From Candidatus Coatesiibacteriota bacterium (GTDB lineage: Bacteria > RBG-13-66-14 > B26-G2 > WVWN01 > G020348885): 34,049 nucleotides of DNA. Of the stretch, positions 1-13,014 are shown piece after piece (the stretch's first letter is position 1; each line of letters opens with the position of its first letter). The stretch is taken from positions 1,340,040 through 1,374,088 of the forward strand of contig CP070755.1 in the NCBI GenBank assembly GCA_020348885.1, in the 5' to 3' direction. The notes under the pieces were generated by a model. That model saw only the letters and a list, made by a program, of their open reading frames with translations. It had not been told where the DNA came from and ran no database searches. Both the position numbers and the translations under genes were made by a program.

Positions 1-674
1 AGTAGACCGACCATTTGACCGGTTTGGAGAAAAGGATAATAATCGGCGGCCATAACCGCCGTTACGCCGGCGGCTACGTTCGCGCCGTAGCGTTCGTGTG
101 CGAAAGCAACCCAGATCTCCGGGTAGGTACTACCCGAAAGGCAAACTACGAGGTGGATATCGTCGTAGTTTTCAACGCCTTTCATAATGGGGTACTCGTC
201 CACTGGCGTCCCGTAGTAGTCCGCCGGGAAAACTTGCCTTATGTTCTCGCCCATTGAGAGCATAACTATCTGACCGCCGACGCTGTACCCGAGGAAGATG
301 TAATCTTCGCCGTATTCGGCGCCCATCATCTCGGCCGCGTTGTTCGATACTTCCAGGGCCAGGCCGGGTCCGCCGGGATGCAAACAAGTTATGATTACCG
401 GGATATCAAGTCTGAAACAATGGATGAGTATCGCTTCGGCCATGGGCGAGAGCTCCGGCTGAGTCGATGGGTCGTAGTCAACCGATAGCAAGACCGGCTT
501 TTTCGGGTCTTCCTTCGCGCCTTCTTCTATGAAGTCGTACACGCGTTCGACCGGCGGCGATTCGGTTACGCCCAGCCCCAAGGGGACGATGAACGGTACG
601 ACCACCGCGGCGCCGACGATTATGAAAATGATGCGCCGGTCCATCCCCAGGAACTTATTCAGCAGCTTTATCAA
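1..674 (-). CDS. Membrane-anchored protein, second copy of module gene C (C2), partial
   Basis: The gene is cut by the left edge of the window, so only about 224 N-terminal residues are visible. I chose a TTG start at 674 because a good ribosome binding site (GGAGGT, 681-686) lies 6 bases upstream and because this start aligns with the N-terminus of the paralogue at 6911-7768. The chain begins with a short basic stretch (DRRIIF), then one membrane segment at about residues 14-33. A Rossmann-like alpha/beta domain follows, predicted to lie outside the membrane by the positive-inside rule. Segments shared with the paralogue include a DYDP motif, GEDY..LGY, an IR..FPAD motif, YPIM..V.NYDDI and PFLQT.Q..GL. 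It follows gene B2 by 40 bases in the same operon. The function is unknown and I recognise no named family. A C-terminal membrane helix, as in the paralogue, would lie beyond the window. Confidence 0.8.
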   Translation of the reverse strand, partial: MIKLLNKFLGMDRRIIFIIVGAAVVVPFIVPLGLGVTESPPVERVYDFIEEGAKEDPKKPVLLSVDYDPSTQPELSPMAEAILIHCFRLDIPVIITCLHPGGPGLALEVSNNAAEMMGAEYGEDYIFLGYSVGGQIVMLSMGENIRQVFPADYYGTPVDEYPIMKGVENYDDIHLVVCLSGSTYPEIWVAFAHERYGANVAAGVTAVMAADYYPFLQTGQMVGL

Positions 675-714
675 AACGACACCTCCGGTTGTTGGAACCG
701 GTGAATCGAAACCG

Positions 715-1419
715 TTATTCGGTACCGCCGAGCCAGGACCGCTCGATACCCAGGATTATCTTCAGCGCCATGGACATCGCGCCGAGACCGACGCCGATCA
801 TTATACCCCGTTTCGCGGCCATGTTCGGATATTCAAGAATCCATTCGGCCAGGTCCGGTAACCATTGGCCGACAATACCTTCCAGGGGTACCCGCCCGAG
901 CATAACGATTATAGCGGCGATGAGGAGGAGAAACGCCTCAAGGCTCCTGGCCCGGAACGTTCGGAAACTGGCCGATACGATGAAGAACGCGAGGAGCGAG
1001 AACATAGTTGCTTGCATCGGTATCTGTATGTAGCTGAAGAGCCACATAAAACCGCTTCCCAAGTCGATGCCCGAGTTAAAGAACGTGAACAGGAAGTCTC
1101 CGAAGAAACCCTCGGCCATCCGTTCCTGGCCGAGAATCAACCGGCCCAGAATGCCGGCCATACCGGTAACGATGGACATCGCGAGACCTATAAGAGCCAC
1201 GATACTGTAGCCCCATCCCTCTCGTTTGAACCGGACTTTATAAGAGTGGACCTTTATAAGCGAGCCTATTCCGAGGAGCATTGCGAACGTCAGGACGATG
1301 ATGAGCCACCGGAGCATATATTGGTACAGGGTAATCGAGAACTGGTGGGGTACGAAGAACTGGACCGCCATCAACGCACCCATAATGAAGCATATGAACA
1401 GCGGGACTTCCCTTCTCAT
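715..1419 (-). CDS. Polytopic membrane protein, second copy of module gene B (B2)
   Basis: This is a 234-residue integral membrane protein with about six hydrophobic segments and no catalytic motif that I recognise. It is clearly paralogous to the protein at 7800-8435. Both start with MRRE(V/I)P, share PMQATMFSLLAFF followed by SAS(F/Y)R.FRAR.LEA, then AAIIVMLG.VPL, and end with LGIERS.LG. The second copy has about 20 extra residues in the middle (near residues 90-115), between two membrane segments. Start: ATG preceded by GGAGGT with ideal spacing. It lies 60 bases after A2 and 40 bases before C2. The near-invariant FRAR...LEA block is a cytosolic-looking loop between helices and is the likeliest contact site with partner subunits (inference). 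Function unknown. Confidence 0.88.
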   Translation of the reverse strand: MRREVPLFICFIMGALMAVQFFVPHQFSITLYQYMLRWLIIVLTFAMLLGIGSLIKVHSYKVRFKREGWGYSIVALIGLAMSIVTGMAGILGRLILGQERMAEGFFGDFLFTFFNSGIDLGSGFMWLFSYIQIPMQATMFSLLAFFIVSASFRTFRARSLEAFLLLIAAIIVMLGRVPLEGIVGQWLPDLAEWILEYPNMAAKRGIMIGVGLGAMSMALKIILGIERSWLGGTE

Positions 1420-1479
1420 ATTAAACCTCCGGTAAAGCCGAAATATCGCGAGTCAGGATCTTCCGTATTATCAGACGCT

Positions 1480-2631
1480 TTACGACACGGTCTCGAACAG
1501 CCTGGCGAACCACGTCGTATCTACTTCTCCAAGACCTGTAAGCGCGATTAAAATGGCACCGACGATAAGTATCACCAATATAACCGCTTTGGCCCAGTCC
1601 TGGCCTTTAAGGCTCCCGAGCATTAGCGGGTCCCGGCCCAGGTACGCGGTCGCGGCGTAAAGCTCCTCGCCCATCAGCGTATAGTCACAGGCCGTGATGA
1701 AGAACGGGAACTGGGTAACCCTGTCGGTCCCGGCTATCTGGATGGCGCCGGTTTGCGCCCCGGTCTCGGCCAGGATGAGCGACTCGGCGTAGAAAGCGCC
1801 CATGTAGAAGTTGGTCGCTGGACGTTCCCGGAGCATTATCCCGTCGACGGCGGCTACATATCCGAACTGGGAGTCGGTTACGTAGAAGACCGAGTCCTCT
1901 TCGAAAGCGTCCGGCCGACCGACCTCAGTATAAGCTTCGCGGACCATCTCCTTTTCGACCATCATTACGATAGGGTCGCGGCAGGGAACGATGAGCGGCG
2001 TCTCGTATTCGGCGGTCTTCCGGGCCACTTTCGCCAGGATGGTCATCGCCGCGATGGTCGCGATATCGGACGCGTCGCCGAGGCCGGAAACGAAGAGAAT
2101 CGGCTTGCCCATCTCGGTGGCGCGGCCGATGGCCTCGTCCACGGCCTCGAGACCCGCGATTTTACGGACGAACAGCTCCTTGCCACCGCGAGCCATCGAT
2201 ATGAAAACCAGAACCAACACGACGAACGATACGACGCCTACCAGAACGTTAAGGCGGTTGAAGTTGAACCACTCGCCGGTGGGACGGCCGGCCCCCTCGC
2301 CGACCGCTGTCGTTTTCCCGTCGGCCAGGTTGGCGACGACGCGATACGAGTAATCGGCGTTAGGTGTAAGCCCCGTATCTTCAAGGAACGTTTCGTCGCC
2401 CTTTACGGTAGTCAACGGCGTATACTTGCCGGTCTCCGGGTCCAACCTTTCGATCGCGAACGAATCCACCTTCACACCCGCGGGCGCCGGCCACGCGACG
2501 ACTACACCGCCGCCGGAGTCGTTGGGCGCGTCCATTACCGTAACCGCCGAGACTTCCGTATCGATCTCTTGGCAACCCGATATTAGTAACGCTCCCGTTA
2601 TAACTACGCAGATAACGACCAGTTTTCTCAT
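1480..2631 (-). CDS. FN3-containing lipoprotein with conserved cytosolic domain, second copy of module gene A (A2)
   Basis: The protein has 383 residues from the ATG at 2631; a GTG three bases upstream sits too close to the ribosome binding site (AAGGAG). The N-terminus is a lipoprotein signal with lipobox LISGC. A fibronectin type III-like domain follows (about residues 25-118), with the usual W.AP...V..F.IER and Y.Y.V..NL strands. Next come a membrane segment (about 127-146), a conserved domain of about 190 residues and a C-terminal membrane helix. Signatures shared with the paralogue at 8543-9736 are GRATEMGK, QFGYVA.VDGIM, FYAESLILAETG, QIAGT, ACDYTL.GEEL.AA.AYL and GSL.GQDW. The conserved domain resembles what I remember as DUF6754 (not verified). 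By topology the FN3 domain is outside and the conserved domain is in the cytosol. It is followed 60 bases later by B2. Function unknown. Confidence 0.88.
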   Translation of the reverse strand: MRKLVVICVVITGALLISGCQEIDTEVSAVTVMDAPNDSGGGVVVAWPAPAGVKVDSFAIERLDPETGKYTPLTTVKGDETFLEDTGLTPNADYSYRVVANLADGKTTAVGEGAGRPTGEWFNFNRLNVLVGVVSFVVLVLVFISMARGGKELFVRKIAGLEAVDEAIGRATEMGKPILFVSGLGDASDIATIAAMTILAKVARKTAEYETPLIVPCRDPIVMMVEKEMVREAYTEVGRPDAFEEDSVFYVTDSQFGYVAAVDGIMLRERPATNFYMGAFYAESLILAETGAQTGAIQIAGTDRVTQFPFFITACDYTLMGEELYAATAYLGRDPLMLGSLKGQDWAKAVILVILIVGAILIALTGLGEVDTTWFARLFETVS

Positions 2632-2671
2632 CACTACTCCTTACGATGGGCGGGGATATCCAGTTGAACGG

Positions 2672-3799
2672 CTAACCAGCCTCTATTATCTCGACATTGG
2701 CCCGGGGGATAACCTCCTCGGCGCCGTCGTCGAACTTGACGCCGAGAACCCGTACCTTCGCTTCGCTCTCAAGTATCTGTAACTCCACCGGCAGGGACGT
2801 TACTTCGCCGAGTTTCCCGAAAAACGGTTCCCGGATGGCACGTACGCGGGTACCGATTTCCAAGTTCGAGCCTTCCTCGCCTGCGCCGGCGGCGAGCTTG
2901 CCTTTCTCGGTGTGGGGAACGATAATCTCCGGCCGGATCACGCCAGCCCGTATCTGGGTCGCCCCGTTTATCGACGCCTGCAGGCCTTCCCGAGCTTTAA
3001 GGAGGTTAAAAGTAGCCTCGGCCATGGCCATATCCCCGAAACCCTCGGTGATTACGAGCGTAACGCCCAGGTTCTCGTGGCCGGTTATCGCGACGCCCAG
3101 GTCGAATCCCAGGAAACTCTTCAGGTCCCAGTCGTGGAACCCGCCGACTATAACGCCTTTCACACCCAACTGTATAGCTTTTTTTAGCGCGGCGGCCGTA
3201 ACGAGGCTCCCGCCAACGATTATCTTACCGGCGCACTCCTCCGTAATGTCCTCGTCGGCCAGGACACGTTCGGAGCTGTCCGTTACGACGGCGATTTCTC
3301 CCTGGGTCTCGCCGCCAATCCCGAAGATACCCTGGATAAACGTTCCGGTCGTCTCGACGGTTACGCCCTCTTTCCCATGGACTTCGACTACCTTCCCGTC
3401 GACGTACGCGTCCATCACCACAGGGTTCGGCGGCTCCCGGACGATAATTTGCCCCGTAATTGACGAGACCGTCTCGATACTACCCTTCACGGGCGATATA
3501 GCCCGGGAACTATACAGGCCGAAGAACTGCTTCATCTCGGCGATGACTTCGCCCTCTTCGACGGCGTCGCCCTCTTGCTTCACCATAAACTTCGGTACTT
3601 CCTCGGGCGGGAGCCCCAGACTGTTGGCGACGTTCACCGTCTCGACGTTACCGGGAAGGAACGTCCGGGCGACGATATCTTCGGCCTTAACCGTGTCCCC
3701 TTTTTTAACGAGTACCTCGCCGGCAAGCGGAAGTATCCGTTCCTTGCGGATTATCGTCTTCCCGAGTACTTTCAATCCCGGCGTATAAGCGTGAGCCAT
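2672..3799 (-). CDS. Soluble protein with sandwich-hybrid-like and KOW-like domains (module gene G)
   Basis: This 375-residue protein has no signal peptide or membrane segment. The N-terminal third looks like lipoyl/barrel-sandwich-hybrid folds: repeated turns such as VKKGDTVKAEDIVAR (31-45), GDAVEEGEVIAEM (78-89) and SPVKGSIETVSS..GQIIVR (102-121). There is no MKM-type lysine for lipoylation. Residues about 190-260 form an alternating alpha/beta stretch with GVKGVIVGGFHDWDL and ITEGFGDMAMAEA. The C-terminus (about 313-373) matches a KOW-type beta barrel: IGTRVRAIREPFFGKLGEV, then V.FDDG.E.VIPRANVEII. It starts 28 bases after the MutL-like gene and ends 37 bases before A2, which places it in the cytosolic core of the operon. 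I do not recognise a named family. A role as an adaptor between ATPase and membrane module is inference only. Confidence 0.85.
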   Translation of the reverse strand: MAHAYTPGLKVLGKTIIRKERILPLAGEVLVKKGDTVKAEDIVARTFLPGNVETVNVANSLGLPPEEVPKFMVKQEGDAVEEGEVIAEMKQFFGLYSSRAISPVKGSIETVSSITGQIIVREPPNPVVMDAYVDGKVVEVHGKEGVTVETTGTFIQGIFGIGGETQGEIAVVTDSSERVLADEDITEECAGKIIVGGSLVTAAALKKAIQLGVKGVIVGGFHDWDLKSFLGFDLGVAITGHENLGVTLVITEGFGDMAMAEATFNLLKAREGLQASINGATQIRAGVIRPEIIVPHTEKGKLAAGAGEEGSNLEIGTRVRAIREPFFGKLGEVTSLPVELQILESEAKVRVLGVKFDDGAEEVIPRANVEIIEAG

Positions 3800-3827
3800 A
3801 TGTTAAATACTCCTATACCTGCGAACG

Positions 3828-5639
3828 TTAAAACACCTTCGGATATATATCCAGGTTCTGGAGCCAGCCAGTTATAGCGTTAACCCGCTTCGTTTCGTCT
3901 TCCGGTATCTGGAACGGGCGGCCGCGGCAGTCGAGTACTACGCCTACCACGCCGCCTTCCAGCGTAACTTCGCGCGCGTCGCCCTTCCCGGCGCCCAGGT
4001 CGAAACCGCGGGCCGGGTCGAGCTTCGCGCGGACCTTCTCGCCTACGGGCAGCGGCAGGAGCCGCATCTCCCCTAATTTGACGTCCTCAGAGATATGCCC
4101 CAACCCCGGGAAGTCCGCCTCTATATGCAGGCAGTTACTCCCCTCTTTCCCGGAACCTACCGGCGCGACGCACGACCCCAGGCGGACCAGACAGTCCCGG
4201 TCGAACACCTGCGTCGCGGCTTTCGGCATCACCTTCGAGAGCACGCCGAGCTGGGGCATCATAAATATCGAGTCGACCGCCAGGAAGGTTACGCATTCGG
4301 GCATGAACCCGTCGATGAGCATCAGGCCGGCTTGGGCACGCCTAGGCGCGTGGCTCAGCGCGCCGCCGGAGCCGACGAGCATATCGAGGTTCATCATGTT
4401 CACGAGAGTTCCACCGGTCGCGGTCTGGGCGAACGCGTCGGAAATCGTTCGCTGCTGCTGGATGCCCTTAAGCCCGACGGCCAGGGATTTATGCTGCTCG
4501 AACGCCAGGCGAAGGGCTTCCCGGGCGATGGCCTGCTCCACGATGAGGTCCTCGAGCGTCTGCGGAATCGTCGTGGGCCGGATCATCTTATTACGGACGC
4601 GGTCACGGATCGCGCGTTCGTCCACCGAGAAAGGTACCCAGCGCATTATGTTGGGGAGCCCCGTCTCGGCGACCACGTTGGATACGGAGTAACTCATCCC
4701 CAGGTTCGCCGAGACGGTCCGGTTGAAGACGCCGCCGAAAACGCTGAAAACGTCGGTGGTGGCGCCGCCTATATCTACGCCGATGGCCTCTATACCGTAC
4801 GTGCTGGCGATGGTCTGGATTATTTCACCGACGGCCCCGGGCGTGGGCATAATAGGTTCGTCGGTCCACTCCATCAATTTGGAGTAACCGGGCGCCTGGG
4901 CCATAACGTGTTCCATAAAGAGATTATGTATCTCATGGCGGGCGGGCCCGAGGTTTTCGCGTTCGAGGACGGGGCGGATGTTGTCGACTACGTAGAGGTC
5001 GGTTTTCGCTTCGAGGCTGCCTTTAACGTTCCCGCGGGCGTCTTTGTTCCCGGCGTAAATTACCGGGAGGTCATAACCGGACCCGAACCGGGGTTTCGGG
5101 TCCGCGGCGCCGATAAGCTCGGCCAGCTCTACGACGTGGCTGATAGTACCGCCGTCGATACCGCCGGATAGTAGTATCATGTCCGGGCGGAGACGGCGTA
5201 TCGCTTCTATCTTCTCATGGCCAAGCCGCCCGTCATTGGACGCAAGAACATCCATTACGATAGCGCCTGCGCCCAGAGCCGCGCGTTGGGCCGATTCGCC
5301 AGTCATCGATTTGACGACGCCGGCGACCATCATCTGGAGGCCGCCGCCCGCCGATGATGTCGATAGATAAACGTCTGTCCCGCCTTTAATACCTTTCCCC
5401 GAGTGAAGTACTTTGACCTTTTTTAACAGCGTTCGTCCGGAGAGTTCCTCGACCTCGCCGACCGCGTTGAGAACGCCCCGGGTTACGTCTTCGGCCGGCT
5501 TTTCGACGGTGGTGGGCGCCTCGCCCCGGACCTTCAGGCGGTATTCTTCCCCCTCCTTCTCTATCAGTATCGCCTTGGTCGTCGTGCTACCGCAGTCGGT
5601 GGCGAGTATCGTCTTGACGTGGGAGTAGTCTTGAGCCAT
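3828..5639 (-). CDS. MutL/GlmL-type ASKHA-fold ATPase (module gene F)
   Basis: This 603-residue protein is clearly in the MutL/GlmL family, named for a protein encoded beside coenzyme B12-dependent glutamate mutase. The actin/Hsp70/sugar-kinase (ASKHA) nucleotide motifs are all present: phosphate-1 loop TDCGSTTTKA (14-23), LLSGGIDGGT (156-165), phosphate-2 loop GVDIGGATTDVF (287-298) and the adenosine-site glycine run LVGSGGALSHAP (421-432). Known GlmL proteins are about 460 residues as I remember them. This one has roughly 130 extra C-terminal residues, a beta-rich region containing KLDPARGFDLGAG and VLDCRGRPFQIPED. No glutamate mutase S or E subunit and no B12 protein is visible nearby, so a role in that enzyme is doubtful. 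The ATG directly abuts the stop codon of gene E, which suggests translational coupling. It is probably the energy-using core of the membrane system in this operon (inference). Confidence 0.9.
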   Translation of the reverse strand: MAQDYSHVKTILATDCGSTTTKAILIEKEGEEYRLKVRGEAPTTVEKPAEDVTRGVLNAVGEVEELSGRTLLKKVKVLHSGKGIKGGTDVYLSTSSAGGGLQMMVAGVVKSMTGESAQRAALGAGAIVMDVLASNDGRLGHEKIEAIRRLRPDMILLSGGIDGGTISHVVELAELIGAADPKPRFGSGYDLPVIYAGNKDARGNVKGSLEAKTDLYVVDNIRPVLERENLGPARHEIHNLFMEHVMAQAPGYSKLMEWTDEPIMPTPGAVGEIIQTIASTYGIEAIGVDIGGATTDVFSVFGGVFNRTVSANLGMSYSVSNVVAETGLPNIMRWVPFSVDERAIRDRVRNKMIRPTTIPQTLEDLIVEQAIAREALRLAFEQHKSLAVGLKGIQQQRTISDAFAQTATGGTLVNMMNLDMLVGSGGALSHAPRRAQAGLMLIDGFMPECVTFLAVDSIFMMPQLGVLSKVMPKAATQVFDRDCLVRLGSCVAPVGSGKEGSNCLHIEADFPGLGHISEDVKLGEMRLLPLPVGEKVRAKLDPARGFDLGAGKGDAREVTLEGGVVGVVLDCRGRPFQIPEDETKRVNAITGWLQNLDIYPKVF

Positions 5640-6011
5640 TTACTTTCCCCTGCGAGCTCTCTTCCGCTCGCGACGTTCTTGCTTCTTTTCCTTCAGTCCG
5701 CGTCGGAAATCGGCGTCGTAAGCCTCGATCTTCCGAAGTAGTAGTTCGACGTTTTCTCGGTGCTCGAGGGCAAGCCGGACTTCGTTATATTGCCCGAAAT
5801 CGAATATAGACCTGACTATCGGGTCGAAGAAGACCATTACCTGGCTGCCGACGAACGAGAGCGGCTTCATCGTCTCGAGGAAAAAAATAGCCGGCGCGGC
5901 CAGGTTCCTGTCCACGACGGCCCGGGCGATTTTCTCGACCAACTCGTCGCGCCGCTCGTCTGGCAGCTCGAACTCTTCAAAGTGTGACGATTGGCTTCCC
6001 CGGAAATCCAA
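5640..6011 (-). CDS. Small helical protein with basic tail (module gene E)
   Basis: This 123-residue protein has no signal peptide. The middle (about residues 34-75) contains a moderately hydrophobic stretch with AIFFLETMKPLSFVGSQVM and FFDPIVRSIFDFG, possibly a membrane-surface or re-entrant helix. It is followed by a helical segment rich in charged residues and a very basic tail (LKEKKQERRERKRARRGK). The start is TTG at 6011; the nearest Shine-Dalgarno-like stretch (GCGGAG) is about 12 bases upstream, so the start is less certain than its neighbours. The stop codon touches the ATG of the MutL-like ATPase with no gap. That layout and the amphipathic character suggest a small partner or membrane tether for the ATPase (inference). 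I do not recognise a named family. Confidence 0.75.
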   Translation of the reverse strand: MDFRGSQSSHFEEFELPDERRDELVEKIARAVVDRNLAAPAIFFLETMKPLSFVGSQVMVFFDPIVRSIFDFGQYNEVRLALEHRENVELLLRKIEAYDADFRRGLKEKKQERRERKRARRGK

Positions 6012-6094
6012 AGTACGCCGAAACTCCGCTTCCTGTTTACTTTTTTCGCTTGGAAACCCCGCCGAGTTTTAATAATCGGTAGGGCATACATCGG

Positions 6095-6883
6095 TCACGC
6101 CAGCCCCAAAAACCCTAAAGTTCCTATTATCCAATCGTTTATTAGGAACTCGATCCGTCCGATCAGAAGCGATATACGCGCCATAACGGTAAACCCGAAC
6201 GCGGCGCCGAACGATACCATCAGGAACCATATCCCGACTCTCGCGGTACCGCCGAGTACACCTTTATGCTCTTTGGAAAAGTAGAAGTATATCAACGCGG
6301 TAACAACGCCTACTATGAGAACCGTATTGGCGATAGACGCGCCTATATCGACGGCGCCGCCGGTTATCACGACCGGTGGGATAATCGTACCCTGAATCTG
6401 GGCGATGCAGTTAGCTTGCATATACACGATAAACGAAAGCCCGGCCCCGAGACCCACCGAATAAGCGATGCCGTAACGCGACACCCACGTCAACTTGGGG
6501 ATGAAGCGGAACAGCATCGTTATTCCCAAGAGGCCGGCGAAAACGCGCAGAAGGTCCCACGTAAACCTTGCGTTGAGGGCAAGTTCGGCGAAAGCCCCGC
6601 CAAACACGGGTCTCGCGGTCGTACACGTGATATTCAGCGGTTGTAAGATCGGTTGGAAGATGTACCACCGCAGGAAGTCCAACGGGTCGAACCCGATAAG
6701 GACGACGAACAGGTTCGGCACCATGAAGTTGTGGTAGTTATACGCCAGCCAATAACCGGCGGAAATCCCAACGAATAGATACTCGGCGACTTTGTAGAAG
6801 GGGTTGTCTTTATACAGGAACGAATATATGAACAGCGTAAGTAGCGCCGCTATCCATATGCCGAACAAGGTTGAAACGTCCAC
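6095..6883 (-). CDS. Polytopic membrane protein (module gene D)
   Basis: This 262-residue integral membrane protein has about seven or eight hydrophobic segments. The N-terminal signature is NPFYKVAEYLFVGISAGYWL (26-45) followed by NYHNFMVPNL. Another conserved-looking segment is KLTWVSRYGIAYSVGLGAGL near the middle. The start is GTG at 6883, 7 bases after GGAGG. It lies between C1 and E, and unlike A, B and C it has no second copy in the visible window. There is no transporter motif that I can name. Being single-copy, it may be the fixed membrane core with which the duplicated A-B-C subunits assemble (inference). Confidence 0.85.
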   Translation of the reverse strand: MDVSTLFGIWIAALLTLFIYSFLYKDNPFYKVAEYLFVGISAGYWLAYNYHNFMVPNLFVVLIGFDPLDFLRWYIFQPILQPLNITCTTARPVFGGAFAELALNARFTWDLLRVFAGLLGITMLFRFIPKLTWVSRYGIAYSVGLGAGLSFIVYMQANCIAQIQGTIIPPVVITGGAVDIGASIANTVLIVGVVTALIYFYFSKEHKGVLGGTARVGIWFLMVSFGAAFGFTVMARISLLIGRIEFLINDWIIGTLGFLGLA

Positions 6884-6910
6884 GTAGAACCCTCCTGGAA
6901 TCCGTGCGTA

Positions 6911-7768
6911 CTACTCCAACGTCGTAGATTTGGTTTCCAGTTCCTCGCTGCGTTCCTTCCGGAGAATAAAGAAGGACAGATTCGCGAAAAGTATAAACAC
7001 GATTATGACGACGTGCGCCACCGACTGGGCGTCCATACGTACGGTCGCTTCGCCGGGGGTTTCGAGTAAGCTTTCGTATTCGGCCGCGCCTTTCAATCCC
7101 GACAACAGGCCGAGTAGCTGCTCGGTCTGTAGGTACGGGAAGAACTGGGGCGCCGATACGCCGGTGCACCCGCCGGCGACCGGTACGTGATACTGGGCTT
7201 GGGCGATAAGTACCCACGCCGGAATCCCAGGGTCGCCGGCCGAAAGGGACATTACGAAGTCGATATCGTCATAGTTGTAAACGTTATCCATTATGGGGAA
7301 CTCGGAGATGTCGCGGCGCTCCAGATCCGCCGGAAACGCCTCCCGGATGGACGAGCCCATCAGTTTAATCAGGATGGCGCCCCCCGGCTTGTACCCGAGG
7401 TTTACGTAGTCCTCGCCGTAGGTTACGTCGAACTCGGGCGTAACGATCGACAGAGCGTCGATAGCCATGGACGCACCCTGCGGCCACAACGCAATGATTA
7501 CGACCTTATGGCCTTTCGCGAAACACTGCCTGAGCATAGCCAAAGCCATAGGGTGGACTTCAGGCGCGCTGGCCGGGTCGTAGTCGAACGACATCAGAAC
7601 GGTTGAACCCGCCGGTAGTTCGTCGACGAATCTATAGACGTTTTCTACGTGGTCCGTCGTTTTCACCGGTAAACCCATAGGCATGAGAAGCGGAAGGATT
7701 ATAGCGAGACAGATAAAGACGAATATTATCCGTCTGTCGATATTGGCCAGCCACCTGATTAAACGCAT
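6911..7768 (-). CDS. Membrane-anchored protein with large extracytoplasmic domain, first copy of module gene C (C1)
   Basis: This is the complete copy, 285 residues. Order: short basic N-terminus (MRLIRWLANIDRR), membrane segment about 14-33, a Rossmann-like alpha/beta domain (about 40-245), a C-terminal membrane segment (about 252-269) and a short charged cytosolic tail. The large domain should face outwards by the positive-inside rule. It contains SFDYDPASAPE (60-70), GEDYVNLGY (118-126), FPADLE (145-150) and FFPYLQTEQLLGLLSG (209-224). The pattern of the first half resembles a nucleotide or small-ligand binding fold, but I see no catalytic signature. ATG start with GGAGG upstream. It is 31 bases after B1 and 27 before D, in the operon. 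The truncated paralogue at the left window edge has the same layout. Function unknown. Confidence 0.87.
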   Translation of the reverse strand: MRLIRWLANIDRRIIFVFICLAIILPLLMPMGLPVKTTDHVENVYRFVDELPAGSTVLMSFDYDPASAPEVHPMALAMLRQCFAKGHKVVIIALWPQGASMAIDALSIVTPEFDVTYGEDYVNLGYKPGGAILIKLMGSSIREAFPADLERRDISEFPIMDNVYNYDDIDFVMSLSAGDPGIPAWVLIAQAQYHVPVAGGCTGVSAPQFFPYLQTEQLLGLLSGLKGAAEYESLLETPGEATVRMDAQSVAHVVIIVFILFANLSFFILRKERSEELETKSTTLE

Positions 7769-7799
7769 CTATTAAAACCTCCGAGAAACGGTATCCGGC

Positions 7800-8435
7800 C
7801 TATTCTTCGCCCAGGTAGGACCGCTCTATACCGAGCAGTATCCTGAGCGAAGCCGATACTACGCCCAGGGCGGCGGCGATCATAATCGCCCGCTGGCCCG
7901 CGGTGTTGCCGACGTCCATAATCCAATCTTTCCACGCGTCGAATTGAAGATACCACGGTACCCAATCGGGTATCCATGCGGTACCGAGGGGCACTTGCCC
8001 GAGCATTACTATTATCGCCGCGAGGAGCAGGAGGGTAGCTTCTAAATTGCGGGCCCGGAAAGCTCTGTACGAAGCCGAAGCCACGAAAAAAGCAAGCAAC
8101 GAGAACATAGTTGCTTGCATAGGATACATACAGTTATAGAACAACCAATAAAAAATGGTCCCTTCTTGGATGCCCAAAAGGATACCGATGCCACCCATAC
8201 CGATAACCATAATAATAAGCGGGAAACTATACGGCCAGTCTTCTTGTTTTAACCTTATCTTGAAGTAGTTAACGCGCAGTAGGTTAAATATACCCACGAT
8301 TATCGCGAAGGCGATTACGACCAAAAACCAGTTGTTCAATCGCTCCGTCACCGGCTCCAGTACGGGGATAAAGAAGTCGAGTATCAGGAGCAGTCCGGCC
8401 ACGAAAGCGAGTACCATCGGAATTTCTCGTCGCAT
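7800..8435 (-). CDS. Polytopic membrane protein, first copy of module gene B (B1)
   Basis: This 211-residue membrane protein has about six hydrophobic segments and is paralogous to the protein at 715-1419. The conserved core covers PMQATMFSLLAFFVASASYR, AFRARNLEATLLLLAAII and VMLGQVPL. The C-terminus keeps RAIMI..ALG..SASLRILLGIERS. Start ATG with a GGGGGA ribosome site. A 107-base gap containing two hairpins separates it from the upstream gene A1, the longest spacer in the operon. C1 follows after 31 bases. No enzymatic motif is visible, so it is probably a structural or channel-like subunit (inference). Confidence 0.88.
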   Translation of the reverse strand: MRREIPMVLAFVAGLLLILDFFIPVLEPVTERLNNWFLVVIAFAIIVGIFNLLRVNYFKIRLKQEDWPYSFPLIIMVIGMGGIGILLGIQEGTIFYWLFYNCMYPMQATMFSLLAFFVASASYRAFRARNLEATLLLLAAIIVMLGQVPLGTAWIPDWVPWYLQFDAWKDWIMDVGNTAGQRAIMIAAALGVVSASLRILLGIERSYLGEE

Positions 8436-8542
8436 ACTACTTCCCCCTCGAAAGGGTCGTACAAGAACTCGGGGTTACTATCGTACGCGGCGTTTACGCC
8501 ACTCGTACACAGACCGTCGCCGGGCGCGGCGACGGCAATATC
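8436..8542 (-). promoter_or_regulatory. Intercistronic spacer with two hairpins between A1 and B1
   Basis: This is the longest gap in the operon. One hairpin has arms CCGTCGCC (8514-8521) and GGCGACGG (8528-8535), 8 base pairs around a 6-base loop, just downstream of the A1 stop. A second has arms GTACG (8483-8487) and CGTAC (8504-8508) enclosing GGCG-TTTA-CGCC. Neither is followed by a run of T on the minus strand, so they are unlikely to be strong terminators. They may stabilise or process the mRNA so that A1 is expressed at a different level from the downstream genes (inference). Confidence 0.45.
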
Positions 8543-9736
8543 TTACCGTACTATAAACCACCTCGAAATATCCAACGAGTATCCGGCTACAGTCAAGCCT
8601 AACTGGTCTACGACCGCTAGAACCGCGCCCAATAATATAAATAACAGGATGATAACCTTACCCCAGTCCTGCCCCACGAGGCTTCCCAATAGACGCGGCT
8701 CCCGGGACAGATACGCGGACGCCGCGAAGAGTTCCTCGCCTATCAGTGTATAGTCGCACGCCGCGATGAAGAACGGAAGCTGCGACGGCATCGCCGTACC
8801 GGCTATCTGTATCGCGCCGACCGAATGGCCGGTTTCGGCTAGAATGAGCGATTCGGCGTAGAACGTACCCAAGTAGAAGCAGGCCGCCGGTCGCTCGCGG
8901 ATCATAATCCCGTCGACGCCGGCGACGTAGCCGAACTGGTCGTCGGTCAGGTATCGGATGTTCCCCTGCTTGTACGCGTCCGGGCGCCCGGCCTCCAAGT
9001 AGGACTCCTTTACGACCTCCTGCGCCGTGGACATGACCAGCGACCTTGAACAAGGTACCAACAGGTCGGCGTCGTATTCGGCTACCATCGTCGCTATCCG
9101 CCCGAGTATCGTTACCGAAGCGATGGTCTGGATGTCGTCTATCTCGCCGATACCCGGAACGTAGAGTACGGATTTGCCCATCTCGGTGGCCCGTCCGACG
9201 GCTTCCTGAACGGCTTCGAGACCGCCGATACGCCGGATGAACAGCTTTTTCCCGGCGCGGGCTTGGGTGATGTAATATAGGACTAACGCTGAAAGGATAA
9301 TAGACGCGATTAAAATATTGACACGCCGTAAGTTAAACAGCTGCCAACTCGCGACAACCGGCCCGGCGGCCGCGCTCTCGCCGGTAATACCTCCGGCTAC
9401 GGTCCTAACCTTGTAGTAATACTCGACGCCGTTCGAAACGTTCTCGTCAACGTAAGTATACGCTTCGTTACCCGATACCGCTTCGAATATCTCTTCGAAG
9501 GGGCCTTCAGGCGACTCGCCCCGAAGTAGAACGTACTTGTCGACGTCGAGGGTTTCGTTCGTCTCTCCCGGGGCCGGCTCCCAGTTTATGTTTATAGAAC
9601 CGCCGGAGTCGAATTCCGTATCGCTCGCCGTGAGGTTTTGGGCGAGCACGTCGCTTTGAGCGCCGGCCCCGACCGCGGCGAGCGGCGTGACGAAGAAAAC
9701 TGACACTAATATTATCTTAAGAAAACGGCCGGTCAT
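8543..9736 (-). CDS. FN3-containing membrane protein with conserved cytosolic domain, first copy of module gene A (A1)
   Basis: This 397-residue protein is the first gene of the operon. Order: a signal sequence (about 1-26) without a lipobox cysteine, an FN3-like domain (about 30-128), a membrane segment (about 140-157), a conserved domain (about 165-358) and a C-terminal membrane segment (about 361-385). The conserved domain carries GRATEMGK (181-188), PGIGEIDDIQTIAS (194-207), DQFGYVAGVDGIM (266-278), FYAESLILAETG (292-303), ACDYTLIGEELFAAS (326-340) and GSLVGQDWGK (351-360). The C-terminal half is the best conserved against its paralogue at 1480-2631, while the FN3 domains have diverged. 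The paralogue is lipid-anchored whereas this copy seems to have an ordinary signal. It may belong to the family I recall as DUF6754 (unverified). Function unknown. Confidence 0.88.
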   Translation of the reverse strand: MTGRFLKIILVSVFFVTPLAAVGAGAQSDVLAQNLTASDTEFDSGGSININWEPAPGETNETLDVDKYVLLRGESPEGPFEEIFEAVSGNEAYTYVDENVSNGVEYYYKVRTVAGGITGESAAAGPVVASWQLFNLRRVNILIASIILSALVLYYITQARAGKKLFIRRIGGLEAVQEAVGRATEMGKSVLYVPGIGEIDDIQTIASVTILGRIATMVAEYDADLLVPCSRSLVMSTAQEVVKESYLEAGRPDAYKQGNIRYLTDDQFGYVAGVDGIMIRERPAACFYLGTFYAESLILAETGHSVGAIQIAGTAMPSQLPFFIAACDYTLIGEELFAASAYLSREPRLLGSLVGQDWGKVIILLFILLGAVLAVVDQLGLTVAGYSLDISRWFIVR

Positions 9737-10030: not shown

Positions 10031-11008
10031 TTGAACATCGTATCTGTTTTAAAAACTATGGTATCTACTCCCGGATACTTCATCGGCGGACAGGCTGTTA
10101 TAGAAGGCGTTATGTTCCGTTCGCCGTCGGCGTACGCCGTAGCCGTACGGAAACCTGACGGTACGATCGAAGAGAAGAGCGAAATAAAACACTCTATAAC
10201 GAAGCGAGTGCCCTGGAAATGGCCGTTTTTACGGGGTGTAGCCACGCTCTTCGAAACATTGTCGCTTGGCGTTAAAACCCTCGAGTACTCGGCGGAAGTC
10301 GCGGTGCCCGAAGAAGAGCGAGAAAAAGCGCGTAACAAAGGCAAGAATAAAACGGCGTCCCGCTTCCAAATGACCCTAACGATTCTATTCGCTCTGGCGA
10401 TGGGGTTGTTCTTGTTCGTAGGTATCCCTTACCTGGTTACGAGCTTGCTCAAAGGCCCGTTGGGAATAGCTGGCGAAAGCCACGTGCTCTTCCATGTCAT
10501 CGACGGCGCCCTACGGATAACGATGTTCCTGCTCTACCTTATCGTGATATCCGCGATGAAAGACGTAAGGCGGCTTTTCGCGTATCACGGCGCCGAACAC
10601 AAGGTCATTAATACGTACGAACACAACGTCGTCCCAACGCTCGAGTCAACGCGCAAGTTCAGCCGCTTTCACCCGCGCTGTGGGACTTCCTTCATCGTCG
10701 TATTACTAATCGTCTTGATAATCATCCACTCGATAACATTCCTATTCGTACCGGAGAACTTCAGTTATATACTCAAGTTCGTTATCAGGTTGGTCTTATT
10801 GGTACCGATAGCCGGAGTCGCGTACGAACTCATACGCCTAGGAAGCAAACTCCCGGATAACCCGGTCGTCAACTTCTTTCTACTACCCGGCATATTGACC
10901 CAGTTCTTCACGACCCGCGAACCGACCGACGATATGATCGAGGTGTCGCTCACTTCGTTCGACCGGGTGCAAGAGCTGGAAAGCGAAGCGACGTCACGTA
11001 TCGATTAG
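10031..11008 (+). CDS. DUF1385 family membrane protein (YqhQ-like)
   Basis: This 325-residue protein matches the DUF1385/YqhQ family. It begins with the family's YFIGGQAVIEGVMFRSP (residues 16-32), continues with PFLRG, and carries the signature AYHGAEHKVI.TYEH near residue 195 followed by FSRFHPRCGTSF. Hydrophobic segments follow each signature. The function of the family is unknown as far as I know. The TTG start at 10031 has a distant GGCGGAG site; an ATG eight codons downstream (10055) is an alternative. It lies 66 bases upstream of prfA. DUF1385 next to prfA-prmC is an arrangement I recall from Clostridia and relatives. Confidence 0.9.
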   Translation: MNIVSVLKTMVSTPGYFIGGQAVIEGVMFRSPSAYAVAVRKPDGTIEEKSEIKHSITKRVPWKWPFLRGVATLFETLSLGVKTLEYSAEVAVPEEEREKARNKGKNKTASRFQMTLTILFALAMGLFLFVGIPYLVTSLLKGPLGIAGESHVLFHVIDGALRITMFLLYLIVISAMKDVRRLFAYHGAEHKVINTYEHNVVPTLESTRKFSRFHPRCGTSFIVVLLIVLIIIHSITFLFVPENFSYILKFVIRLVLLVPIAGVAYELIRLGSKLPDNPVVNFFLLPGILTQFFTTREPTDDMIEVSLTSFDRVQELESEATSRID

Positions 11009-11074
11009 CGGCGCGCCTTCCGGTTCGCGGGTTGTTGGGCACCCGGCTTTAACTGTTTAAACTATAGTGGAAGT

Positions 11075-12151
11075 ATGAAAGAAATCCTGGAAAGAATAGA
11101 AGCCCTCCGGGGCGAATACGACGAAATCGGTCGCGCTATGTCCGACCCGGCGACGGCGTCGGATCGCCGCCGTATGGCCGAGTTGGGGCGACGCTACAAC
11201 GAACTCGAGGAAATCATATCGGCGGGCGATCGTCTGCGAGCGGTCGTAGAGGAAAAAGAAGGGACGGAACCGCTTCTCCACGACGGCGACCACGAAGTTC
11301 GCGAGATGGCCCGCGAAGAGGTGGAGCGACTCTTGGCGGAAGAAACGCGGCTGGCCGACGAGATACGAGCTTTACTCCTTCCCAAAGACCCGAACGACTC
11401 CCGGAGCGTCATAATGGAGATACGCGCCGGGACCGGCGGCGACGAGTCGGCGTTATTCGCAGCCGACCTGTTCAGAATGTATAACGGGTACGCCGAGTCC
11501 CGCAAGTGGAAGGTGGACGTAATGAACTCGGCGCCCACCGAAATCGGCGGGTTCAAGGAAGTCGTTTTCGGAATAGACGGCGAAGGGGCTTACAGCCGCC
11601 TGAAGTACGAGTCGGGCGTACACCGTGTCCAGCGCGTTCCCGAAACCGAAAGCCAGGGCCGCATACACACTTCCGCGGCTACCGTCGCGGTTTTGCCCGA
11701 GGCCGACGAACTTGAGGTCGAGATAAACGGCGAAGACATAGAGATGGACGTCTTCCGCTCGAGCGGCCCCGGCGGCCAGAGCGTCAATACCACCGACTCC
11801 GCGGTCCGCCTGACACACAAACCTACCGGCATCGTCGTAACGTGTCAGGACGAGCGTTCGCAACACAAAAACCGGGCGAAAGCGATGCGTATCCTCCAGG
11901 CGCGCATACTCCAGATGACGCAGGAGGCCGCCGAAGCGGAACGGGCCGAGGAACGCCGGTCGATGGTAGGCTCCGGCGACCGCAGCGAACGTATCCGGAC
12001 CTACAACTTCCCCCAGGGCCGCATATCGGACCACCGCATCAACCTGACCTTATACAACCTAAAAGACTTCTTGGCGGGCGAGTTGGATGAGGTAATAGAC
12101 GCGCTGGCCGACGCCGAGAGGGAAGAGAGCCTAGCCGCGTCGGGGGTTTAA
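11075..12151 (+). CDS. prfA: Peptide chain release factor 1
   Basis: The protein has 358 residues, the usual length for RF1. It releases the finished protein from the ribosome at UAA and UAG codons. The codon-recognition tripeptide is PET within [17 protein letters not shown] (the PxT form that marks RF1 rather than the SPF of RF2). The peptidyl-tRNA hydrolysis motif GGQ sits in [17 protein letters not shown] near residue 232; its glutamine is the target of the methyltransferase encoded next. The C-terminal [14 protein letters not shown] and DHRI segments are also typical. The stop codon lies 2 bases before the GTG of prmC, so the two are very probably translationally coupled. Confidence 0.97.
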
Positions 12152-12153
12152 GC

Positions 12154-13014
12154 GTGACGGTCGGCGAATTTATTGCGGTGGCCGAGAAAACCCTCGCCGA
12201 AGCCGGCGTACAATCCCCCCGAGCCGATGCGGAAACGATGACCGCTGCGATACTGAACGTACGGCGGTCGGATTTGTTTTTACGGTCAGGGGACGAACTA
12301 CCGCGGCCGGAAGCGGAGAAGCTACGCGCCCGGGTAGAACGCCGGGCTGGCCGGGAGCCGCTTCAATTGATTCTCGGCTACGCGCCGTTCCTGGGGCTTG
12401 AAGTCGCTATCGAACCGGGCGTATTCGTCCCGAGGCCCGAGACAGAAGGTTTGGCCGAGCTTTGCGTTGAGCTGGCCGGTGGGATGCCGAACCCTACCCT
12501 AGTCGAAGCTTGCGCGGGGACGGCGGCTTTATCGTTGGCGTTTCTCCGCGAACGCCCGGACGCGGAAGTCCTAGCGGTCGAGCGGGACACGGCGGCTGTC
12601 GCTTGTGCCGCCAGGACCGCAAGACGATACGGTCTCGACTTAAAGTTGGTACGCGGCAACCTGCTAGAGCCGCTGGTCCGCGGCAAGCTGGAAGGGACCG
12701 TTGATATAGTAGTCGCTAACCCGCCGTATATCCGTTCGGGCGATGTCGATTCACTTCCGCCGGAGGTCCGGGACTGGGAGCCGAGGGAGGCGCTGGACGG
12801 CGGGCCCGACGGACTCGACTACTACCCGCCGCTGACCCGGGTGGCCGCTTCGCTCCTCGCGCCCGGCGGTTGGCTCGCGTTCGAGGTGGGGGACGGCGCG
12901 GCAATGGCGGTCGTCGGTATTATCGAACTTTACGGCGGTTTCGAAATGCCGGCGACGGCACGAGATTTAAGTGGCGTAGAACGCTACTTTTACGCGCGAA
13001 AAGGCTCGAACTGA
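12154..13014 (+). CDS. prmC: Release factor glutamine N5-methyltransferase
   Basis: This 286-residue protein is PrmC/HemK, which methylates the GGQ glutamine of release factors using S-adenosylmethionine. It has the N-terminal helical domain (1-75), the linker REPLQLILGYAPFLGL, the family's VPRPETE (92-97) and the catalytic NPPY (189-192). The motif I region is odd: where the family normally has a DxGxGSG-type loop it reads VEACAGTAALSLA (117-129), so the acid and the glycine pattern are changed, although an acidic residue at the end of strand 2 (VERD) remains. Given its place directly after prfA it is probably still functional, but SAM binding should not be assumed. GTG start at 12154. Confidence 0.94.
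   Translation: MTVGEFIAVAEKTLAEAGVQSPRADAETMTAAILNVRRSDLFLRSGDELPRPEAEKLRARVERRAGREPLQLILGYAPFLGLEVAIEPGVFVPRPETEGLAELCVELAGGMPNPTLVEACAGTAALSLAFLRERPDAEVLAVERDTAAVACAARTARRYGLDLKLVRGNLLEPLVRGKLEGTVDIVVANPPYIRSGDVDSLPPEVRDWEPREALDGGPDGLDYYPPLTRVAASLLAPGGWLAFEVGDGAAMAVVGIIELYGGFEMPATARDLSGVERYFYARKGSN

Follow-up and report, generated by a model that had tools for sequence, protein, structure and literature searches.

Does the compact run of minus-strand genes at the start of a 34,049-nucleotide stretch of Candidatus Coatesiibacteriota DNA (GenBank assembly GCA_020348885.1, contig CP070755.1, positions 1,340,040 to 1,374,088), the whole of which is called the window here, encode an undescribed membrane system? 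Ten open reading frames (ORFs) follow each other there in the order A2-B2-C2-G-E-F-D-A1-B1-C1, with intergenic gaps of 0-107 bases (Table 1). Their coordinates confirmed the ten-gene order on one strand given in a first-pass annotation, which had read the cluster as a duplicated three-gene membrane module around a MutL-like ATPase core. The two copies of A are 47% identical (E 3e-116), those of B 42% (E 7e-48) and those of C 41% (E 2e-54), and all motifs quoted for the duplication are present in both copies; A1-B1-C1 and A2-B2-C2 are true homologous triplets. Within the set, only A (DUF6754, plus a weak FN3 match) and F (MutL) score above a Pfam cut-off, and no family above cut-off was found for B, C, E or G in Pfam or NCBIfam. 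Overall, gene order, co-occurrence and ancient paralogy support the proposal that several genes here encode a membrane system not described before, with one ATPase module and a pair of related sub-assemblies, but the repeating unit is A-B-C-G rather than A-B-C, and G is not single.

The four-gene unit is seen in relatives of the cluster. A scan of one genome per species gave at least 580 confirmed relatives of A, and 80 of these loci were read (organism names follow the sequence record titles). A is followed by B, C and G, in this order, in 87 of the 91 A genes with enough downstream sequence, which shows the order to be kept across phyla, as the first-pass annotation had suggested checking; 28 of the loci read hold two to four A copies. 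Moreover, D comes after F in 28 of the 33 F genes of the loci read, a homologue of E is found upstream of F in 17 of these 33, and A is immediately preceded by D in 28 cases. Three genomes of the same order as the window (G001-G003) carry the arrangement A-B-C-G-E-F-(one gene)-D-A-B-C-G, while it is inverted in G004. The proposed position of the MutL core between two modules holds for this order of bacteria, but not for many other lineages, in which E-F-D stands ahead of one to three ABCG units or separate from them. The taxa include Zixibacteria, Coatesbacteria, WOR-3/Stahlbacteria, Latescibacteria, Fermentibacteria, Cloacimonadota and Gemmatimonadota, together with Poribacteria, Eisenbacteria, Edwardsbacteria, Caldithrix, Planctomycetes and one deltaproteobacterial bin, and the set is conserved in about a dozen phyla of mostly uncultured, poorly known bacteria.

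Co-occurrence of the genes was then evaluated in 41 genomes, comprising 14 of the window's phylum and 27 of other phyla, each of the latter from a different family. C, D and G are present in an identical group of 21 genomes, in which A was found in 20 (it was missed in a 75%-complete genome) and F in 19, and none of A, C, D, F and G was detected in the remaining 20 genomes. Outside the phylum, the same 7 of the 27 genomes carry A, C, D and G, and 20 are without any of them (p = 1.1e-6 per pair); within it, A is present in 13 of 14 genomes, the exception being an incomplete one. Co-occurrence, which the first-pass annotation had proposed to check, was observed for these five genes. In addition, the system was not found in 14 control genomes or in plasmids at the sensitivity used, and no match was obtained in viral contigs with a search sensitive to close relatives only; on these results a mobile or viral origin was rejected.

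The duplication of the unit is old. In a tree built from concatenated units, module type takes precedence over organism in the grouping, with A1, B1 and C1 in the type II module and A2, B2 and C2 in the type I module according to the A clades. When, among 29 units, all those of the window's class are constrained to be monophyletic, the log-likelihood falls by 158 units (approximately unbiased, AU, test, p = 3.6e-5). The grouping and the AU test together indicate that the duplication is older than the compared lineages, and a recent lineage-specific duplication is rejected. The two modules are ancient, position-specific paralogues, and their types had already formed when the window's class and Zixibacteria separated. 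The same groups are recovered when A, B and G are each analysed in a tree of their own, and with one exception also for C, and from this agreement it follows that A, B, C and G evolved as a unit and travelled together.

Why, then, does G appear only once in the window? The source genome is a 2.6-Mb draft with 100-N gaps at the contig joins, and one of these (L004:13901-14000) ends exactly at window position 1; G appears single because the window starts at this scaffold gap, and its single state as a biological fact is rejected. Two such 100-N joins, L005:9776-9875 and L004:13901-14000, interrupt the operon. A fragment of C, a type II G and the next gene are located elsewhere in the draft (approximately G000:C1:2137964-2140275), beside another 100-N gap, with the third C copy and then G at approximately G000:C1:2138766-2140275. 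Compared with the two G proteins of an order-mate, this displaced G shows 66% identity to that of module II and 47% to that of module I. The gene that follows it (L005:7465-8184) resembles L117:404-1099 (31% identity over 226 residues, E 7e-18), which is the gene after the module II G in that order-mate. At the DNA level, the displaced C fragment is 85% identical to C1 across 528 bases, which suggests that the assembly mixes strains. The likeliest explanation is that the true C-G continuation was assembled from a sibling strain and then placed elsewhere in the draft, a recent extra copy being the less likely reading.

We then focused our attention on A, the first member of the unit. Both copies score far above the cut-off of 27 bits for DUF6754 (PF20539), so that A is a clear member of this family of unknown function, the membrane unit and the ATPase cassette around it being described in this analysis. 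The AlphaFold model of A (pLDDT 89) supports the FN3 domain that had been assigned in the first-pass annotation, by a fold match of Z 12.5, and FN3 matches dominated the fold searches. The DUF6754 domain (model residues 169-345) resembles the sirtuin 1s7g (Z 11.7, root-mean-square deviation 3.4, 142 aligned residues). It differs from Sir2 by its membrane anchor, by the lack of a detectable sequence relation and by the absence of the sirtuin motifs GAGxS and GxPDFR, found in 0 of 66 A proteins, and the modelled likeness implies no function. As to topology, family-averaged counts of lysine and arginine around the transmembrane (TM) helices predict the FN3 domain of A and the domain of C outside the membrane and DUF6754 inside, in support of the orientation first suggested.

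Based on these results, we think it probable that the products form one dedicated complex. That this complex belongs to the inner membrane of diderm bacteria, has not been described before and consists of two distinct ABCG sub-assemblies serviced by an ATPase is in our estimation an even call. Each A-B-C-G unit would be a membrane sub-assembly, in which B and G make the membrane part, A places FN3 outside and the Rossmann-like DUF6754 domain inside, and C exposes, on the outside, a Rossmann-like domain that probably has a ligand pocket. E-F-D would be a cytosolic ATPase cassette, and we lean slightly towards F acting on the complex through D, with energy flowing in that direction: F would act on the cytosolic A domains and so assemble, activate or reset the membrane part, while C may sense or handle something outside. 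The outcome would be that something recognized by C outside is moved or assembled across the inner membrane at the expense of ATP. In its most novel form, the proposal is a new kind of ATP-dependent trans-envelope machine. One to three divergent membrane assemblies of four subunits each, with similar Rossmann-like domains on either side of the inner membrane, would be driven in it by an ATPase resembling GlmL together with a barrel-sandwich adaptor, as a core trait of about a dozen mostly uncultured diderm phyla; this we put forward tentatively, at a little below an even chance. Transport or envelope assembly, rather than an enzymatic, redox or sensing role, is more doubtful still, though it is the likeliest overall job. 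Clusters hold one to three units; where there is more than one, the units are distinct ancient types and so probably do different jobs side by side. Three observations weigh against our proposal. Firstly, F is missing from two positive genomes, G006 (91% complete) and G020 (100% complete), which implies that these genomes either manage without the ATPase or have a substitute for it, and F may thus be dispensable or replaceable. Secondly, conservation in DUF6754 is spread over the whole domain and not focused at strand ends, leaving a ligand pocket in A unsupported. Thirdly, none of the neighbours outside the set indicates a substrate.

The strongest alternative arises from F itself. Its PF13941 score is far above the cut-off of 27, in line with the MutL-like nature first attributed to it, and the phosphate motifs DCGSTTTK and D.GG.TTD of actin/Hsp70-type ATPases are present in 24 of 24 aligned homologues, in a family with 71% mean column identity. 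F shares the full Pfam domain and both phosphate motifs with GlmL/MutL, the methylaspartate mutase accessory protein, and it matches GlmL-type NCBIfam models; relatives of this ATPase class service cofactor enzymes. F and D could therefore be an activase that uses ATP, comparable to GlmL or BcrAD, with ABCG as a membrane enzyme whose cofactor it reloads, and the folds of A and C are indeed of cofactor type. However, F reaches 228.4 bits against the GlmL equivalog cut-off of 475, has about 120 extra C-terminal residues beyond the Pfam match, and co-occurs with D and the membrane unit in genomes without the mutase E subunit: no match to glutamate mutase E (PF06368) exceeded the cut-off in the 41 genomes, and a glutamate mutase partner for F was rejected. 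Judged by these scores, F is a GlmL/MutL-family ATPase yet not GlmL. Moreover, no B12-binding or radical-enzyme family was matched consistently by A, B, C or G. In several unrelated lineages (L062, L066, L103, L081, L127; G017:C55, G029:C46), genes for the glycine-cleavage P-protein are found immediately upstream of E-F-D or no more than about 20 kb away, which would suit an activase; as glycine-cleavage genes are present in most genomes, about equally with or without the system, this adjacency was dropped as evidence. Altogether, we regard the activase as unlikely.

C offers a second alternative. The model of C2 (AlphaFold pLDDT 96.1) predicts a Rossmann-like domain of six strands between two TM helices, the C-terminal one of which is long, and the best structural matches of C are the TrkA/KtrA RCK domain and CODH/ACS epsilon, tied at Z 9.1, a value near background for such models. 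RCK-like domains might thus control B and G as a sensor or gated channel, and multiple units per genome would suit multiple ligands. B and G have conserved charged residues, those of B including the near-invariant R124, R127, R182, E204 and R205. Nevertheless, Z 9 is barely above the level of a common arrangement, and C differs from RCK domains in being predicted outside the membrane and in lacking a dinucleotide motif after its first strand, where 1 of 78 proteins has one. From CODH/ACS epsilon, which like Sir2 has a fold of the DHS-like NAD/FAD-binding type, it differs by its membrane anchoring and by the absence of a detectable sequence relation. In addition, no ion-channel pore family was found among the Pfam matches of B and G, and a channel or sensor is, in our view, somewhat less likely than the activase. 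The probable pocket of our preferred reading, a membrane complex serviced by F, is consistent with the distribution of residues conserved in at least 90% of C sequences, which occupy 16 of 54 positions just after strands against 12 of 147 elsewhere (p = 3e-4); positions just after strands are where Rossmann-like folds bind ligands. The invariant R12, H252 and N263 of C lie within or adjoining the membrane helices. The models of A and C also show the same order of six strands and helices ahead of the last TM helix, which hints at a relation and is suggestive only, and homology by sequence was rejected, as profile comparison gave nothing (probabilities of 4.3% and 0.8%).

Features of D raise a third alternative, a redox complex remotely like Rnf/NQR in which D would be RnfC/NqrA-like and A and C, resembling NAD/FAD-type Rossmann folds, would bind nucleotide or flavin. 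Among 29 members of the D family, Biotin_lipoyl was matched by 21, RnfC_N by 18 (best E 1.2e-6), NQRA_N by 7 and KOW by 4, at E ≤ 0.1. However, the likeness to the RnfC/NqrA barrel-sandwich is limited to part of the first approximately 115 residues of D, while the remainder of D and all partner subunits differ, and the window's D stays below the cut-offs (RnfC_N, 17.7 against 25.6 bits; NQRA_N, 17.5 against 25). Furthermore, no RnfA/E/D/G or Nqr membrane family was among the Pfam matches listed for B or G, the dinucleotide motif is rare in the A domain too (3 of 66), NAD(H) is not expected outside the membrane, where the domain of C is predicted, and the ATPase would be left unexplained; a redox complex therefore seems improbable. 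Least probable of all is the reading that the genes are mere neighbours in a conserved operon, the membrane proteins working independently and F and D having other clients. It would suit the several genomes in which D or F is apart from ABCG and the F paralogues without adjoining ABCG (L126, L127), but the strict order, the co-occurrence in unrelated phyla and the joint duplication of four genes speak against it.

The association of F with D is also seen in G009, where F-type and D-type domains are fused in one 1037-residue ORF (L127:8078-11191). Two relatives in the phylum have a second F-D pair, fused in that same ORF and adjacent in L128:3-3113. The window's own genome encodes a second, divergent F-type ATPase of 700 amino acids without adjoining D or ABCG (L126:7733-9835; G000:C1, approximately 897.7-899.8 kb).

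Is the system new? Apart from the DUF6754, MutL, FN3 and barrel-sandwich parts, Pfam, NCBIfam and PDB sequences gave no characterised match to the set, although a distant relation to known secretion or transport ATPase systems may exist. A literature search found no described system and no paper naming DUF6754 or PF13941, in agreement with the earlier claim that no known secretion, transport or motility system has this set. The novelty claimed is that of the assembled system, the domain of F being one of a known ATPase family, and the claim depends on the searched libraries containing no match. The families described here may be listed as unknowns in an existing general survey of uncharacterised families from uncultivated taxa (PMC10849945). 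The result is a seven-gene system in which most families are without a Pfam entry and which, should it prove to be a membrane complex, would be fundamental to how these groups build and run their envelope. Since one relative is in the genus Gimesia (Planctomycetes), it should be possible to find a host that grows in culture and is open to genetics.

Table 1. Genes of the cluster, with positions in the window, strand and assigned or predicted features.
Gene	Position	Strand	Features
A2	8543..9736	-	Signal peptide, FN3 outside, TM, DUF6754 inside (Rossmann/DHS-like), TM (predicted); type I module; PF20539, 408 bits
B2	7800..8435	-	Polytopic membrane protein; type I module; no Pfam or NCBIfam match above cut-off
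C2	6911..7768	-	TM, extracytoplasmic Rossmann-like domain, TM (predicted); type I module; without a described family
G of module A2-B2-C2	6095..6883	-	Polytopic membrane protein; completes the repeating unit as its fourth gene
E	5640..6011	-	Small charged protein directly upstream of F; no family above cut-off
F	3828..5639	-	GlmL/MutL-family ATPase, dedicated subfamily; PF13941, 415 bits
D	2672..3799	-	N-terminal part of barrel-sandwich type; C-terminus possibly KOW/SH3-like; F is its presumed partner
A1	1480..2634	-	Architecture as A2; type II module; PF20539, 403 bits
B1	715..1419	-	As B2; type II module; 42% identical to B2
C1	3..674	-	Features as C2; type II module; truncated by the 100-N scaffold gap where the window begins

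Beyond the cluster, window positions 10031-13014 hold a divergent neighbour cluster with DUF1385, release factor 1 and a PrmC-type methyltransferase, which are ordinary housekeeping genes. Among relatives, three additional tandem C genes follow an A-B-C-G cluster at L131:4263-6968. In the WOR-3 and Fermentibacteria loci L048, L057, L058, L059, L063 and L093, ExbB/ExbD/TonB genes and a gene for a large CarboxypepD-type outer-membrane-like protein are located a few kb downstream of ABCG.

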